A stretch of DNA of 64,000 nucleotides, from the NCBI RefSeq assembly GCF_023520795.1, contig NZ_CP046605.1, positions 372,001-436,000 of the forward strand, in the 5' to 3' direction. The DNA comes from Corynebacterium accolens. Its GTDB lineage: Bacteria > Actinomycetota > Actinomycetes > Mycobacteriales > Mycobacteriaceae. Below the pieces are notes generated by a model that did no database searches, was not told the origin of the DNA, and saw nothing but the letters and a program-made list of their open reading frames with translations. Below, one piece after another: positions 33,268-39,210 of this stretch. Within the stretch, counting starts at the first letter, position 1, and every line of letters begins with the position of its first letter. A program made the position numbers and the translations under genes.

Positions 33268-33435
33268 GTGCTTGGAGTTGTGGGCCCGTTTCATTCGTTG
33301 TCTGAGTCGGATCGTCGTGGCTTGGTCGCCTTGGTTGGCAGTGGGCGTAGCGTTCGTTCGGCTGCTGGTGAGCTTGGCTGTCATTACGTGCATATGGTAT
33401 ATAGTGAGCTGGTTGATTCTTCCGGTGACTACTAA
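33268..33435 (+). pseudogene. N-terminal transposase fragment (IS30-like)
   Basis: GTG 33268 follows TTAGGAGGG and begins VLGVVGPFHSLSESDRRGLV, then ALVGSGRSVRSAAGELGCHY, a helix-turn-helix start typical of IS30-type transposases, ending at TAA after 55 residues. The DDE domain is absent. The preceding GGTCGTTGCAACACTTTCC (33224-33250 region) looks like the IS terminus. Family assignment is tentative. Confidence 0.45.
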
Positions 33436-33479
33436 CCGAGAACGATGCCCTATTTGTGCAGGGCAGATGAAGAAAAAGA

Positions 33480-34917
33480 GAGTGTCCGATTCTTTGTGTG
33501 CGGGGGCTTGGTTTACAAGTAATCCGCGAATCGGTTGGGGTAGGCCACGGCTAGTTGGTTGATGGCTTGTTTCCACCCGGTGGCTTTCGCTCCTTCAATA
33601 TAGCCGTTGCCTTCAATGTCGCGTTTTGTTTTCTTCGCTCGCTGGGCAGCGCGCTTGTCTTCGATGTCGCAGATCATCAGCCACAGCGTCTTCAGTGCGG
33701 CAGTATCGTTCGGGAATTGCCCCCCCCGGTTACGGGTAGCTTTACGCAGTTGGGCGTTGAGCGATTCGATCGAGTTGGTGGTGTAGAGCACTCGCCGCGC
33801 CGCTGGCGGGAACTGCAGAAACGGTACCAACCGCTCCCATGCGTCCCGCCAGACTTTGACCGACTGGGGGTATTTCCGGCCAAGTTCACTGGCCTCGAAG
33901 ACATCCAGGCTGGCACGTGCAGTGTCCTCGTTAGCGGCTGTGTAGACCTCACGCAGTGTGCGGGAGACTGATTTGCGGTCCTGGTAGGACACCCACCGGT
34001 TCGCAGCCCGAATCAGGTGCACAATACAGGTCTGCACCATGGAATCCGGCCAGGTTGCCTCCACGGCTTCCGGCAGGCCTTTGAGCCCGTCGCAGCACAC
34101 GATGAACACGTCTTGGACACCGCGGTTGGCCAGATCCGCACACCGATGCCCAAAATGCGGCGCCTTCATTGTCCGCGATCCACAATCCCAGGATGTGCTT
34201 GATGCCGTCCATGTCGACACCAACCGCCATGTAGCAGGACTTGTTGACCACGCGGTGGCCGTCACGGATTTTAACGCGTAGCGCGTCGAGGAAGATCACC
34301 GGATAGAACTCGTCGAGCTGGCGGTTTGCCAGATCATGACCTCTTCCAAGACCGCGTCGGTAATGGTGCTGATCGTATCCGGGCTCATATCCACACCGAG
34401 GGTGGTTGCGAGATGGTGGCACATATCGCGCACGGTCATCCCGCCGACGTACAGCGAGATAATCATGTCGTCGAGCTCTGTGAGCCGACGTGTGCCCTTG
34501 GGCATCATCCGGGGAGTAAACGTGCCGGCGCGATCCCTGGGCACGGTCACTTCCACCGCGCCGTAGCCAGAGTTGACGGTTTTGGTGTACGACCCGTTGC
34601 GGTGATTGCTGCTCTGTGCGGTTTCCACCTGGGCTTTGGCCTTGTGTTCGGAATGGCTATAGCCCAAATGCGCATCCATCTCTGCCTTAAGACCAGCGTT
34701 AATCGAAGCCTGCAACAGGCCTTTGACCAGCTCGCTGGCGTCATCGGTGGACATCGACAGCACGCCAATCAAGCTGGCGAGCTTAAGGATTTTCCATCAG
34801 CTTCTCACTGATGTCGTTGACCCTCGCCGGGTCATGGTTTTTCTTCGGTGACACAGTAGTCATTATCTGTGAAACTCCTTCTAGATCAGAGCCTCACACA
34901 CAAACTTCCTGACACCC
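33480..34917. mobile_element. IS256-family element, decayed
   Basis: 1438 bp bounded by imperfect inverted repeats: GAGTGTCCGATTCTTTGTGT at the left and, on the minus strand from 34917, GGGTGTCAGGAAGTTTGTGT. The interior is one IS256-type transposase gene with several frameshifts. The 8 bases outside the two ends do not match, so no target duplication is visible. Confidence 0.75.
33513..34863 (-). pseudogene. IS256-family transposase with frameshifts
   Basis: Start ATG 34863 gives TTVSPKKNHDPARVNDISEK then a stop at MENP. The frame resumes as LIGVLSMSTDDASELVKGLL (34,296-34,772), with VTVPRDRAGTFTPRMMPKGT and LYVGGMTVRDMCHHLATTLG. After another shift the DDE core reads VIFLDALRVKIRDGHRVVNK and VGVDMDGIKHILGLWIADNE; after a third, IVCCDGLKGLPEAVEATWPD to NRGGQFPNDTAALKTLWLMI. 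Three indels make it inactive. Confidence 0.85.
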
Positions 34918-35154
34918 TCGGCCGAGATGGCTTTCGCCGCGATGAGTTCTTCGATGACCTTGCGTGTTGCCGGGCCGACTTTCCTGACACTCTCCCTCGG
35001 CACCTAGCACATCAGCATGCCCCCGGCGGTATTTCAGGTCCGAGGCTGCGTTATGCCTCCGGATAAGTGAAATAATCCTAATACCAGCACGCCAGACCGG
35101 CTAAACATATAACTTCACCAACACATCCTGTCGTTTAGGCCCCCGAAGGAGCTG
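34918..35154. other. Intergenic DNA between the IS256 relic and the broken higA
   Basis: No gene is recognised. The motif CTTCCTGACACCCTCGGC at the IS256 end recurs in altered form (TTTCCTGACACTCTCCCTCG) about 72 bp downstream, suggesting an older duplicated IS end. No higB toxin frame could be found here. Confidence 0.35.
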
Positions 35155-35502
35155 TTGGCGTTGACTTTATCGACTACCACTGAAGCACGCACTCATGTTG
35201 ATGTTGTTCCCGTTCCGCATCCCGGAGAAATTCTTCTCCTAGAATTCCTCAAACCCGCGGAATTACCCAGTATCGCCTGGCAACGACATTGGCACTACCC
35301 GCTCTCAAGTCTGCAAAATCACCCGCGGTGCGCTCGGTATCAGCGCCGATATGGCCTTGCGCTGGTCGGCCTACTTTGGGAATTCCGCGGAGTTCTGGCT
35401 CGGACTCAAGAGGAATACGATCTGTGGAAAACTCGCCAGACCACTGATGTCAGCGCCATCGTTCCGTGGAATCACAAAGAAGAAGCCGAGTCTCATTCAT
35501 AG
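35155..35502 (+). pseudogene. higA: HigA-type antitoxin gene with two compensating frameshifts
   Basis: The N-terminus VVPVPHPGEILLLEFLKPAE is the start of HigA/VapI-type XRE antitoxins, and the C-terminus QEEYDLWKTRQTTDVSAIVP belongs to the same family and the same frame. Between them the expected middle is read only in another frame (ITRGALGISADMALRWSAYF, then GNSAEFWLGL). So two indels cancel, giving a full-length frame with a nonsense middle, including the helix-turn-helix. No intact HigB toxin is adjacent. The gene is dead, or the indels are sequencing errors. TTG 35155 or TTG 35161 would be the start. Confidence 0.7.
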
Positions 35503-35519
35503 GAACAGTTGACTTGCGC

Positions 35520-36770
35520 TCATGAGTGGCTAGGGGAATTCCCTTTCTCCCTCGCGTCTGCTTGCGCAAGGACGCGATCGGCTCGGCGCACAAAGATAAG
35601 GGCGGGCCCGATAGCGAGGAGCCCGGCGAACGCATTGGCCCACAAACCAGTGGTCAAGGTCCAGCGATGAGACAATGCGGCCAGCGGGGTCGACCACACA
35701 CTAGAGAGTGAAACGACGGTGCTCATTTGGATATTGGTGACTCGGCCAAAAGTTTCTTCTGCCAGAAGCCTGTGGAGTGCGGCATAGGTTACCGCGCCGG
35801 CGGCTGGGGCTGTAAGAACAGACAGCCCTAAGGGGATGATCATCAACAGGCTGGGGCTGAGCAGGGCACCACAGGCGATTGATGCAGCAACCCAGGCGCA
35901 TGTGCCTACCTGAAGGGTGGCGAAGGAGAACTTCTTCTGCAACCAACCCGTCGACAAAGCCCCCACAATCCCGATGAGGCCTATGGACGTGCGGGCTAGT
36001 CCCGTTACCCATCCAGGGTTATTCCCCTCCTCCAGTATGAGGACCGCCATGAACAGCGAGCCGTTAATTGCGCAGTTCGACAGTGTTTGCATGGCAATGA
36101 GCCCGCGAAGTAGTGGCGCGCGAGCCACGATGGCTAAGCCTTCCTTCGTCGTGCGTAGGAGCTTGTTCTCTGCCTTCTTTGTGGGGTCTAGGCGAGCCCT
36201 GATGAAGAGGAAGAAGACAATGGTGAGGATATTTGCCAGACCGACAAACACGAAGGGCAGTGCCACATTGACTTCTAGAAGCGCGCCGCCCACAGTGGGG
36301 CCGATGAGTCCCGCAAATTGCAGACGTGCTTGGATGAGCCCTTGTTTGGCGGCGAGCTGTTCTTCCTCAACGAGCTGGGGCAGGCAAGGGTCGGAGCAAG
36401 CTTGACCTATCCGGTAAAAGAACATCATGCTCCCGAGAAGCGCACCGAAGACCATGGGGGAGAAACTTCCGGATAGGATGAGACTCGCTAACGCGAGGTT
36501 GAGTACCCCGGCCAGAGCGTTGGTCACAATGATGAGTGGCTTGCGGCGCCACATATCCGCAAGAGAGCCGCCGATGATTCCGCCTGCCAGTGCAGCTATT
36601 CCGGTGATGGTTCCATACAGGCCGGCAAGGGTAAGGCTATCGCTCAAGCGTAGAGTGACCACCGGAATAGCAAGCCCGGCTCCTACCCCGGCTATCTGAG
36701 CCACGAGGTCAGACCACAGGAATAGTCTAAAATCACTTGGGTTGGTGCGATCAACTTTATTTATATTCAA
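35520..36770 (-). CDS. MFS exporter of the RiPP-like cluster
   Basis: 416 residues from TTG 36770, fixed by ATAGGAGGAGCA just upstream. Ten to twelve hydrophobic helices; FLWSDLVAQIAGVGAGLAIP at the first helix and GGSLADMWRRKPLIIVTNAL, the loop 2-3 motif of MFS_3/EntS-type exporters, which often release siderophores or peptides. It is the last gene of a four-gene minus-strand unit, 24 nt after the SagB-type gene. Export of the modified peptide, or self-protection, is the likely role (inference). Confidence 0.8.
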   Translation of the reverse strand: MNINKVDRTNPSDFRLFLWSDLVAQIAGVGAGLAIPVVTLRLSDSLTLAGLYGTITGIAALAGGIIGGSLADMWRRKPLIIVTNALAGVLNLALASLILSGSFSPMVFGALLGSMMFFYRIGQACSDPCLPQLVEEEQLAAKQGLIQARLQFAGLIGPTVGGALLEVNVALPFVFVGLANILTIVFFLFIRARLDPTKKAENKLLRTTKEGLAIVARAPLLRGLIAMQTLSNCAINGSLFMAVLILEEGNNPGWVTGLARTSIGLIGIVGALSTGWLQKKFSFATLQVGTCAWVAASIACGALLSPSLLMIIPLGLSVLTAPAAGAVTYAALHRLLAEETFGRVTNIQMSTVVSLSSVWSTPLAALSHRWTLTTGLWANAFAGLLAIGPALIFVRRADRVLAQADAREKGNSPSHS

Positions 36771-36794
36771 TGCTCCTCCTATAACAAAGCCATC

Positions 36795-37856
36795 TCAGTC
36801 GTCCCTAGGCCCAACTGCAATTAGCATGCCCCAGAGGAAAGATCGCCAATCTAGTCCCGCGTTGTCAGCGATGATGTCTTCCCGAAAGAGAGAAATGCCC
36901 CGAGAGAGGTGGTCAGTGGCTGTAGCAACCATTTGAATAACTTGGCTAAGGTGCCCAATTTCTAGCCAGAGCGTTCGAATCGAGTTTAGACTTTCGTATT
37001 TCCAGGATATGACTCGAGGATCACCAACAGTAATAAAATGTATTGGGGCATCCACGACATGCGATTGTTTCCCAACCGCGGTCTTCCATTCCTTATAGGG
37101 CTCTAGATGATTGAGAAACAGTAAGGAATGGTTTTTCGGGTGGTATAAATAATAACCATCGTCGATTGAATCGCATCTACTAACGCGGACAATGAGCTCG
37201 GTTGAGCACAATCCTCCGGCAGATGGGGCCGAACGAAAATGGATGTTTCCGGACTTCTGTTCGTTTGTTGTTGGGCGCTTTGAAAAGCTTGCGGAATCGT
37301 AAAGGATTGATGCTAGTGACCTAAGGCTAATTGATTTTAGCTCTGTATTCGTAAAACGTGCAGATTTTCGAGAATTCAAAACAGATTTGAAGCTTCTGGT
37401 GTAGCTTATTGTCTCGCCGTGCGGAAGGTTCAATTCTTGCTTGGCGAAAATCGGATTCTCCCATACATGATGCGGTGGGCCGGTGAGCGCGAGTTTTTCC
37501 CTTAAATGCTGGTGATGCTCATCTAGTTGAGCGATTGTCTCGTCGGAACGGACTCCGCTGGCAAATGCGTAGTCGCGCGCGAGCGGAGGAGTATCGGGCC
37601 ACATATCTAGAACCGTGCATTCGGTATTGGGGGGTTCATTAGAAAAATGCTGTAGTACCCCTAAGTTCTGGAGTTCCGGAAATGAATCTTCGCTAGACAC
37701 GACCGTTACTCCACTAATAGTTTGACTATCTAGTAAGCGGAAGAGTTCCTCCCTTGCCTTCTGGTTTAAGATTGTCTGAGTTTGCTCTAGAGGGTTGTCC
37801 CAAACGAGATACGGTCCCTTGAACCGAAAATGGCCCACTGTCGCTATTCTAAGCAT
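36795..37856 (-). CDS. SagB-type dehydrogenase (nitroreductase fold)
   Basis: 353 residues. The first 150 residues are a variable N-terminal region. The FMN-binding core opens VLNSRKSARFTNTELKSISL (R-K-S-x-R-x-F), then LRSLASILYDSASFSKR, FRSAPSAGGLCSTELIVRV (the SAGGL-xx-E motif of SagB/ThcOx oxidases), YYLYHPKNHSLLFL, and near the end WLEIGHLSQVIQMVATATD. SagB enzymes oxidise azolines made by YcaO partners, but no YcaO is present here, so another peptide oxidation is implied. Its start overlaps the ATP-grasp gene by 8 nt. G+C content is clearly below that of neighbouring housekeeping genes. Confidence 0.8.
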   Translation of the reverse strand: MLRIATVGHFRFKGPYLVWDNPLEQTQTILNQKAREELFRLLDSQTISGVTVVSSEDSFPELQNLGVLQHFSNEPPNTECTVLDMWPDTPPLARDYAFASGVRSDETIAQLDEHHQHLREKLALTGPPHHVWENPIFAKQELNLPHGETISYTRSFKSVLNSRKSARFTNTELKSISLRSLASILYDSASFSKRPTTNEQKSGNIHFRSAPSAGGLCSTELIVRVSRCDSIDDGYYLYHPKNHSLLFLNHLEPYKEWKTAVGKQSHVVDAPIHFITVGDPRVISWKYESLNSIRTLWLEIGHLSQVIQMVATATDHLSRGISLFREDIIADNAGLDWRSFLWGMLIAVGPRDD

Positions 37857-38844
37857 CGTTTAAAGTCCTTTGTAAATATCTAGCAATGGCGTTGGAGACG
37901 AGATTCGTGCCAGCTCGGTCTTCGTAGAATAGCCAATCGAAGCAAACGTTACATTCAAGAAATATTGGGTCACCTCCTTGTATTAGGAGGTCGATAGCAC
38001 ATAAATTACAACCGGATAGTTGGGAGTATTCAATTAGAATATCTTTTAATCTTTGGGTAGATTTATATAGAGATACGCTCACGCCGTTGTTCTCTTGCCA
38101 CAGGTCGTCTGCATTGTCATATCCCGATACTCGGAAAACGATAACTTCTTGGTCGATTACGTAGCAGCGGAGCTCATACTCTGAGTTCATATACTTCTGG
38201 AATAGGAGAGGTACCGGCTCATCACGAGTTGATTGATCTAGCTTCAAACGTTTAGGCATAGCTCCAAGAAGTGTTCCCGGAGTCGGTTCTACCCAGTGGG
38301 GGCCAATCGGTTTGGCAATTGAAAAGGGAAACGCCGCTTCATATCCAATTGACGTTTGAGGGGTAGTAAGTCCAATAGAATTGGCGAGCTGAATTTGTGC
38401 AAGCCGTGACCGAGCGTTACAAAATTGGTTTACGCTAAATAAAGCAATCTCTTCAAGCGTTTGTATGTAGGATATTGCCTGATCTTTGATATAAATTATT
38501 TCCTCTTTAACGCAGGATATATTTTTTATAGATTCGCGTGAAAAATGGCGGATCCAAGCTACTGTCACCGTGGTGTTGCCATGTTCCGTAACCAGTCTTC
38601 CGAAGTTATCTATTGGTAATAGCTCTTTACTGAGTTCGCCGTCGCTGTCAATTCGTACGACTCCAATGTTTTGGCTGGCGAGAATCAGCGACAGGAGGTC
38701 ACATTCTCGGTCATCTTGGCGGGTTATGAAGACTACACTTTTTGATGGAAGCGATTCGGGGTGATTGTGGCGGAATTCTCGCTGAAAATCGTTGCTTGGG
38801 CCTTGAAGTCTTATGGTGATATTTTTGTCTATAAGGATCGTCAT
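37849..38844 (-). CDS. ATP-grasp peptide ligase of RiPP-maturase type
   Basis: 331 residues. The N-terminal domain VVFITRQDDRECDLLSLILA with VVRIDSDGELSKELLPI follows the pattern of MvdD/TgmB-like ATP-grasp maturases (TSREDxxxD.. then xRxDxxxF). The centre has NARSRLAQIQLANSIGLTTP (QxxxAxxxGLxxPxT) and PVPLLFQKYMNSEYELRCYV (FQ.y....e.R..v). The end is CNLCAIDLLIQGGDPIFLEC followed by NVCFDW, where the usual metal-binding E-x-N is ECN. Such enzymes couple side-chain carboxylates to hydroxyls or amines, or extend peptides. It is 59 bp after the short precursor frame and overlaps the SagB-type gene, so all are coexpressed. DNA here is AT-rich (38,461-38,520 has 18 G+C of 60). Confidence 0.8.
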   Translation of the reverse strand: MTILIDKNITIRLQGPSNDFQREFRHNHPESLPSKSVVFITRQDDRECDLLSLILASQNIGVVRIDSDGELSKELLPIDNFGRLVTEHGNTTVTVAWIRHFSRESIKNISCVKEEIIYIKDQAISYIQTLEEIALFSVNQFCNARSRLAQIQLANSIGLTTPQTSIGYEAAFPFSIAKPIGPHWVEPTPGTLLGAMPKRLKLDQSTRDEPVPLLFQKYMNSEYELRCYVIDQEVIVFRVSGYDNADDLWQENNGVSVSLYKSTQRLKDILIEYSQLSGCNLCAIDLLIQGGDPIFLECNVCFDWLFYEDRAGTNLVSNAIARYLQRTLNDA

Positions 38845-38860
38845 AGATATATGGCGGGGT

Positions 38861-38897
38861 CCTGTGGGTGCATGCTTGAGGGGCTTGCATCCACAGG
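38861..38897 (-). promoter_or_regulatory. Attenuator-like hairpin between precursor and ATP-grasp gene
   Basis: CCTGTGGGTGCA and TGCATCCACAGG form a 12-bp stem (one G-T) with a 13-nt loop. It begins 6 nt after the precursor stop and lacks a U-tract. Such hairpins commonly let a precursor peptide be made in excess over its enzymes. Confidence 0.6.
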
Positions 38898-38903
38898 GGG
38901 TAG

Positions 38904-39065
38904 CTAAAAGTCCTTTTTTACGTCGTGATTTGCTGCCTTGATTTTGTAATCATTAACAAAGGCGTCCAGCTTGTGATTGGGTCGTGGTGTGGGGTGTTCT
39001 GTCTGGTTTAGAATCTCCCGCGCTATCTGAGTGCTGAGACGCGGTGCTACTTCTGCGTGATGCAA
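38904..39065 (-). CDS. Candidate RiPP precursor peptide
   Basis: 53 residues if started at TTG 39065, which has GGGAGG 7 nt upstream; an in-frame ATG at 39095 has no ribosome site and would add 10 residues. The N-terminal half MHHAEVAPRLSTQIAREILN is leader-like. After HPTPRP comes NHKLDAFVNDYKIKAANHDV and KKDF, rich in Lys, Asp and Asn, side chains an ATP-grasp ligase could link. No signal peptide, no transmembrane segment, and no known family. It is the first frame of the ATP-grasp/SagB/MFS unit, has a promoter upstream and a hairpin behind it. The precursor role is inferred from size, position and composition. Confidence 0.6.
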   Translation of the reverse strand: MHHAEVAPRLSTQIAREILNQTEHPTPRPNHKLDAFVNDYKIKAANHDVKKDF

Positions 39066-39139
39066 GGTAAAACCTCCCGGTAGTGTGATGTGCATTACTT
39101 GCGGTAATTAGAATCTACATGAGCACTTTGGGTCCGGGT

Positions 39140-39168
39140 ATCCTACAAAAGTTCTAAATCTCGTTTCA
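39140..39168 (-). promoter_or_regulatory. Promoter of the RiPP-like cluster
   Basis: On the minus strand TGAAAC (39163-39168), 17 bp, TAGGAT (39140-39145), leaving a leader of about 65 nt before TTG 39065. The divergent DUF3068 gene has TAGGAT at 39197-39202, 8 nt before its ATG. Confidence 0.5.
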
Positions 39169-39210
39169 GGAAGTGTGTTTTGAACAAACGAGTCGGTAGG
39201 ATAAGCCACC

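Follow-up and report, generated by a model that had tools for sequence, protein, structure and literature searches.

Two families of peptide-modifying enzyme meet in a small operon of Corynebacterium accolens, and each has well-described relatives. The core of a graspetide holds acceptor Thr, Ser or Lys residues and donor Asp or Glu residues, and SagB-type oxidases are known chiefly for oxidising azolines once a YcaO enzyme has acted. The operon lies in a stretch of 64,000 nucleotides (nt), hereafter the window, which spans positions 372001-436000 of a single-contig genome of 2,465,625 bases. Its four minus-strand genes encode a short peptide, an ATP-grasp ligase, a SagB-type dehydrogenase and a transporter of the major facilitator superfamily (MFS), and together occupy 35520..39095, about 3.6 kb. 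The cluster is real, conserved and uncharacterised; it very probably serves a ribosomal-peptide pathway related to graspetides, and in one of the two types of peptide tail that we describe, the KKD type, the dehydrogenase is likely doing non-azole chemistry. Throughout, G labels denote genomes and L labels denote loci compared with the window.

A 2022 survey describes, in its main text, an ATP-grasp branch 6 with two distantly related precursor clusters, 367 and 1115, that have neither the GG nor the Phhx(1,2)h motif (PMC8939145). The predicted precursors of this branch are mostly accompanied by a SagB-like nitroreductase; no product or mechanism is given there, and the products may fall outside the graspetide class. 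We found no tail motif, chemistry or product, and no member from Corynebacterium or Lactobacillus, either in that main text or in a wider literature search, and Figure 6 and the supplements, which lay outside our comparison, may show a motif. A literature search made without most subscription papers found the pairing of ATP-grasp and SagB only in this survey, and passages of a second source list both families as markers of ribosomally synthesized and post-translationally modified peptides (RiPPs; PMC12710340). The preliminary description of the locus could match the pairing to no described peptide class; the pairing itself proves to have been in print since 2022, and what stands of the claim is that the main text attaches no product or chemistry to it (PMC8939145). 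Our cluster resembles branch 6, as described there, in its ligase, its short precursor without either motif and its SagB-like partner, and the PGM1-bearing locus of that branch resembles one of the loci that we compared, L063. These shared neighbours (SagB, PGM1-like) only suggest that the window's ligase belongs in the branch.

Recurrence of the cluster and its peptide

The ligase was found in 3 of 242 Corynebacterium genomes: its own, G175 (98%) and G128 (34%). A profile built on three ligases (A1) reached, at an expectation value (E) of 1e-12, 20 of 396 genomes in a phylum sample and 54 of 401 in a family sample, two samples that overlap and both count the window's genome, and its scores split into those of at least 107 bits and those of at most 85. 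Long flanks were taken at 19 places: the nine outside the window's own genome that scored at least 107 bits, G128, G175 and eight weaker ones; eleven of these, with the window and L003, make up the 13 close ligases. A SagB gene (profile A2, E 1e-5) adjoins 11 of the 13, in two phyla, counting L068 at only 23 bits and L064, which is cut by a contig end, and none was found in the eight weaker-scoring ligase regions inspected. In the nine loci measured, the longest ligase and SagB frames always overlap, by 4 to 89 nt. On Ligilactobacillus salivarius plasmids (three records) a ligase relative of 24% identity stands in the order short coding sequence, ligase, SagB (here too with an 8-nt overlap) and a protein of 92 amino acids (aa); the 92-aa protein after SagB in L003 (8038-8316) has a weak thioredoxin match, E 0.0094, below cut-off. 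Sampling of the family of G267 (39 genomes) and of the genus of G795 (18 genomes) gave two genomes each, in both cases only those already known, and a scan of viral contigs with query P0029 gave no match. The neighbours of the ligase at L063 (G593) are a PGM1-like ligase and a protein of 831 aa that carries macro and ADP-ribosyltransferase-type domains; at L070 the neighbour is a JmjC-type protein.

Directly upstream of the ligase lies a short open reading frame (ORF), present in all 11 SagB-bearing close loci, in Actinomycetota and on the L. salivarius plasmid. In the window it runs over 38904-39095 and would give 63 aa from an ATG; the TTG at 39065, seven bases after GGGAGG (39073-39078), is the better start, chosen by eye. 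No Pfam, NCBIfam or PADLOC model matched it. The peptides have one of two tails. Six loci are of the KKD type, with KKDF in the window, G175 and G128, KKDA in L003, KKDN in L062 and KKDS in L064, and five end in CKGCHGG (L065, L066, L067, L068 and L069); no peptide with either tail was found at L063 or L070. Common to both types is a leader segment with an aromatic residue followed, in most peptides, by an acidic residue and then by a Tyr that is invariant in the ten aligned peptides.

Among 5,630 ORFs of 20-130 aa from 39 loci, taken out of 136, the pattern KKD.$ occurs five times and C.GCHGG$ four times, each directly upstream of a ligase and nowhere else; this count does not include the peptide of L067, which sits in too long a frame, or that of G175 (L137), a locus added later. 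When a peptide profile was built leaving out one group at a time, the held-out peptide was the first non-training ORF of 3,416 in seven of eight groups, with an E of 3.4e-4 for L062 and of 4.3e-6 or better in the remaining passing groups (the window and G128 are taken up below). Across whole genomes the profile found one strong place in 10 of 13, exactly the ten cluster carriers, with two further places at E 0.43 and 0.75 only; three transporter-only relatives had no match up to E 1. Nine of the ten carriers were themselves in the profile, and the copy in the tenth, G175, is nearly identical to the window's. A short frame at the matching place in such distant genomes is more than chance. The analysis supports the RiPP-like anatomy seen in the preliminary description, the recurrence of this frame upstream of the homologues and a conserved C-terminal target region.

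In a FastTree phylogeny of 22 ligases the CKGCHGG-type group has a support of 0.999, and the node joining it to the window's clade has 0.26. The Lactobacillales group has KKD tails, and so do two groups of actinobacteria that lie outside the CKGCHGG group; KKD is therefore probably the older of the two, though this is not certain.

A SagB-type dehydrogenase without YcaO

The window's SagB exceeds the TIGR03605 cut-off (84.2 bits against 78.4), with Pfam Nitroreductase at only 0.24. By profile it matches the putative nitroreductase 3eo7 (6.5e-36), ThcOx (2.4e-13) and McbC (1.5e-4), and a fold search places ThcOx first; from its family membership the enzyme would be expected to use flavin mononucleotide. 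The motif W-K-Y, whose Lys-Tyr pair we take to be catalytic in azoline oxidases, is present in all four complete KKD-type SagBs and gives way to W-R-Y in four of the five CKGCHGG-type SagBs; a literature search on the catalytic role of the pair gave no result. The likeness to ThcOx, McbC and the SagB family extends to profile, motif and fold, whereas TIGR04511 (putative peptide maturation dehydrogenase) stays below its cut-off of 240 bits throughout (window 74.2, L062 174, L065 133, L067 142, L068 23) and the setting differs in having no YcaO and no heterocyclisable tail residues. In the same way, the cluster shares a SagB-type dehydrogenase with linear azol(in)e-containing peptides, also called thiazole/oxazole-modified microcins (TOMMs), but has neither their YcaO nor their Cys/Ser/Thr core.

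That the cluster holds no YcaO had been noted at the outset, and the absence extends to the genome: none was found in the ten cluster genomes tested, which include the window's and exclude the L. salivarius plasmid host, in a search whose control found YcaO in 5 of 14 named genomes. All five KKD-type peptides examined are free of Cys, and the last 20 residues of the window and G128 peptides contain no Cys, Ser or Thr; in the same region L003 and L062 have one Ser or Thr each and L064 has two, at no position common to all. Azole formation in the KKD type was rejected because no YcaO was found in any of the ten genomes and the window's tail has no heterocyclisable residue. On the same two grounds SagB chemistry here likely differs from that of its known relatives and, if the tail is its target, SagB likely oxidises something other than azolines in the KKD type. 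A conserved SagB in a setting that leaves no room for an azoline suggests a two-electron modification of peptides that has yet to be described.

SagB also occurs on plasmids in other company. Twenty plasmid records have a SagB match, three of them from L. salivarius, and seven of the other 17 were inspected. YcaO is annotated on four, from Corynebacterium tuberculostearicum (L007), Enterococcus (L008), Latilactobacillus curvatus (L009) and Hymenobacter (L084); the Nonomuraea plasmid (L006) has YcaO/TfuA-like frames recognised by eye, without annotation, and the Bradyrhizobium plasmid (L082) an annotated TOMM protein. The C. tuberculostearicum record is a mobilizable plasmid from a skin isolate with a TOMM-type cluster of YcaO, SagB and ABC transporter. 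On a Maritalea plasmid (L081, 4560-6840) SagB is followed by an MFS gene, with no ATP-grasp or YcaO annotated nearby and no KKD tail among the frames listed. A Sinorhizobium plasmid (L083), one of 70 ATP-grasp plasmid records of which most were not inspected, has no annotated SagB.

Proposed pathway and alternatives

By sequence and by fold, the closest solved relatives of the ligase are graspetide synthetases. Its profile finds CdnC (7e-28), AMdnB (1.9e-20), MdnB, MdnC, PruB (1.8e-17) and PsnB (1.5e-5), then more weakly ArgX (3vpb, 2.6e-4) and RimK, and a Foldseek search with its AlphaFold model ranks graspetide ligases first. Direct scans gave Pfam RimK at 9.1e-6 and NCBIfam GRASP_SAV_5884 at 1.5e-12, the latter with 47 bits against a cut-off of 350, and the ligase stays below the NCBIfam cut-offs of the named graspetide maturase families. 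Residues K178, R226, D285, E297 and N299, presumably those that handle ATP and Mg, are invariant in ten of ten ligases. The cluster departs from graspetides in having no graspetide leader motif and a constant SagB partner. Its peptides show no Thr/Ser...Asp/Glu core; of the residues that could serve as acceptor and donor, the KKD tail has both Lys and Asp, and the CKGCHGG tail has no acidic one.

We propose that the leader segment, with its aromatic, mostly acidic and Tyr residues, would dock on the ligase, which would activate a carboxylate, be it that of the Asp in KKD or the terminal one that both tail types share. Joining of the activated carboxylate to the amine of the conserved Lys would give a lactam, SagB would take two electrons from the C-terminal unit, a host protease encoded outside the cluster would cut off the leader, and the MFS transporter would export the product and shield the producer. 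On balance we lean towards this overall course of joining by a graspetide-type ligase, oxidation by SagB and export. Its parts merit different degrees of trust: a ribosomal peptide pathway is highly probable, action of both enzymes on the same tail is reasonably likely, and a Lys lactam as the specific bond is a tentative suggestion. It is tempting to speculate, with comparable reserve, that the cluster represents a RiPP class of its own, in which ligase and SagB might build an oxidised, cross-linked C-terminal warhead on an invariant KKD tail (or, in sister clusters, CKGCHGG), SagB working without an azoline substrate, KKD being the ancestral form common to lactobacilli and actinobacteria, and the exporter doubling as immunity where production has been lost.

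Several observations weigh against the proposed pathway. The AlphaFold models are weak, with a mean pLDDT (predicted local distance difference test) of 66.4 for the ligase and 64.6 for SagB. The SagB partner in L068 has diverged strongly and has no W-K/R-Y motif. The held-out E is only 0.058 for the window and 0.026 for G128, L003 fails that test (rank 14, E 8), and the peptides were picked partly by their tails, so that the test is not fully independent. CKGCHGG has no Asp, so the two tail types cannot share an Asp-Lys lactam. The cluster has no peptidase gene. An MFS gene directly follows SagB in the window, G128, L062 and L065, and in L066 by its 94% identity to L065, but none follows it in L003, L068 or L069, where the next proteins matched other families or none (L064 is cut by the contig end and L067 lay outside this survey).

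Some of the same features could instead belong to a carrier-peptide pathway, in which the ATP-grasp enzyme would add a free amino acid to the peptide's C-terminus, SagB would oxidise it, and a small molecule would be released and exported. The LysW system with its ligases ArgX and LysX offers a parallel, as it too pairs an ATP-grasp enzyme with a small protein whose C-terminus is conserved, and ArgX-LysW appears among both the weaker sequence matches and the fold matches of our ligase. The nearly invariant tail, unlike the diversifying cores of many RiPPs, would suit a carrier, as would the free C-terminus in both tail types, and an MFS transporter suits a small molecule. However, the match to graspetide ligases is much stronger than that to ArgX (7e-28 against 2.6e-4), the cluster holds neither a tailoring peptidase nor an amino-acid enzyme, and the residue at the very end is not constant (F, A, N, S or G). 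LysW-type carriers end in a Glu that accepts the amino acid, whereas the tails here end in F, A, N or S after Asp, or in GG; a SagB partner and the absence of lysine and arginine genes from the cluster further separate the two systems. We consider a carrier unlikely, while ranking it first among the alternatives.

An ordinary graspetide, with side-chain lactams or lactones made by the ligase and a SagB that is dispensable or acts elsewhere, would agree with the grouping of the ligase among graspetide synthetases and with the SagB-less loci L063 and L070. It is improbable in view of the SagB gene that adjoins all but two of the 13 close ligases, across two phyla, and whose frame overlaps that of the ligase wherever this was measured, and in view of the tails: no conserved tail position offers a Ser/Thr acceptor, and CKGCHGG has no acidic residue.

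It is more doubtful still that the short frame is no substrate but a leader or regulatory ORF, the enzymes making a non-peptide or modifying another protein. The frame matches no model and no product is known, yet leader and tail are conserved at the amino-acid level, at the same place, in two phyla, and both enzymes come from peptide-modifying families. A disguised azole pathway, with ATP-grasp in place of YcaO and SagB oxidising azolines, can point to the resemblance of SagB to ThcOx and McbC and to the two cysteines of CKGCHGG but is scarcely credible given the Cys-free KKD-type peptides and the genomes without YcaO, and if modification takes place at the tail it is already refuted for the peptide of the window.

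The 2022 survey left this group without chemistry in its main text (PMC8939145), and precursor sequences and two tail types are now available for it. The operons are compact enough to be expressed and tested whole, and the transporter-only relatives are candidates for a test of immunity.

Operon layout, transporter and site history

Table 1. Features of the operon, in window coordinates.
Feature	Coordinates	Strand	Basis
Precursor peptide gene (predicted role), 53 aa from TTG	38904..39065	-	Longest frame extends to 39095
KKDF tail codons, proposed modification site	38907..38918	-	KKD.$ in 5 of 5,630 small ORFs, each directly upstream of an ATP-grasp gene
Hairpin between peptide and ligase genes (putative role)	38861..38897	-	RNA fold
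ATP-grasp ligase, graspetide-synthetase-like, 331 aa	37849..38844	-	Profile and fold matches; invariant residues
SagB-type dehydrogenase, 353 aa	36795..37856	-	TIGR03605 over cut-off; ThcOx/McbC relatives; W285-K286-Y287 present
MFS transporter, 416 aa, proposed exporter and self-protection	35520..36770	-	MFS_1; kept alone at the site in three relatives

The four minus-strand frames stand in the tight order first described, with an overlap of 8 nt between ligase and SagB (37849-37856). The cluster had also been called AT-rich against the ribosomal block; this is true of the peptide, ligase and SagB genes (G+C 0.479, 0.435 and 0.476, against 0.607 for rpoB) but not of the MFS gene (0.573). A ribosomal L7/L12 gene flanks the operon on one side, and a PorA-family gene followed by rpoB on the other. 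PADLOC matched none of the four proteins to anti-phage defence, and a promoter and terminator scan gave no more signals than in shuffled sequence.

RNA folding of 38840-38915 gives a stable hairpin (z-score -3.79). A hairpin follows the peptide gene in four of the five loci folded, the others being G128 (z -4.8), L062 (-2.5) and L003 (-4.5); L065, whose peptide and ligase genes are 12 bases apart, has none. In G175 one base change turns an A-C mismatch into an A-T pair. The hairpin may favour expression of the precursor over that of the enzymes.

The transporter matches MFS_1 at 1.2e-18 and is found in 8 of 242 Corynebacterium genomes (E 1e-60), three of them with the ligase, including G175 (99%). 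Three relatives keep it without the ligase at the same site, between the L12 and PorA genes: G074 (94%, L129), G150 (93%, L130) and G195 (79%, L118). The alignment with G150 skips from window position 36894 to 39067 and leaves a SagB stump (residues 322-352, 81%), which is best read as a deletion of the biosynthetic genes; it skips from 36720 to 39169 in G074 and from 36719 to 39172 in G195, neither with a stump. None of the three MFS genes has an internal stop, and the ratio of nonsynonymous to synonymous substitution rates (dN/dS) against the window is 0.13 for G150 and 0.12 for G074, which suggests constraint, in values that include the time before loss; dS is saturated for G195. That the gene was kept agrees with a role in protection from the product, and it may instead reflect another function, or lag. 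Transporter relatives also occur in G166 (44%) and G023 (55%), whose flanks share no window DNA except part of the G023 MFS gene. In G219, G105, G220 and G211, no cluster DNA was found between the genes for L12 and PorA.

The insertion sequence (IS) recognised beforehand as a decayed IS256 is a Mutator-family (IS256-like) transposase in broken frames at 33320-34994. Carriage of the cluster by this element was considered and rejected. In G175 the cluster occupies the same site but the element is missing, window position 33319 being directly joined to 34995, and for this reason the element likely arrived after the cluster. A neighbouring stretch at 35142-35522, which we take to be higA-like, matched no Pfam family. 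G015 has only this stretch at the site, in DNA about 91% like the window's, and in G074 and G150 it runs on continuously into the MFS match.

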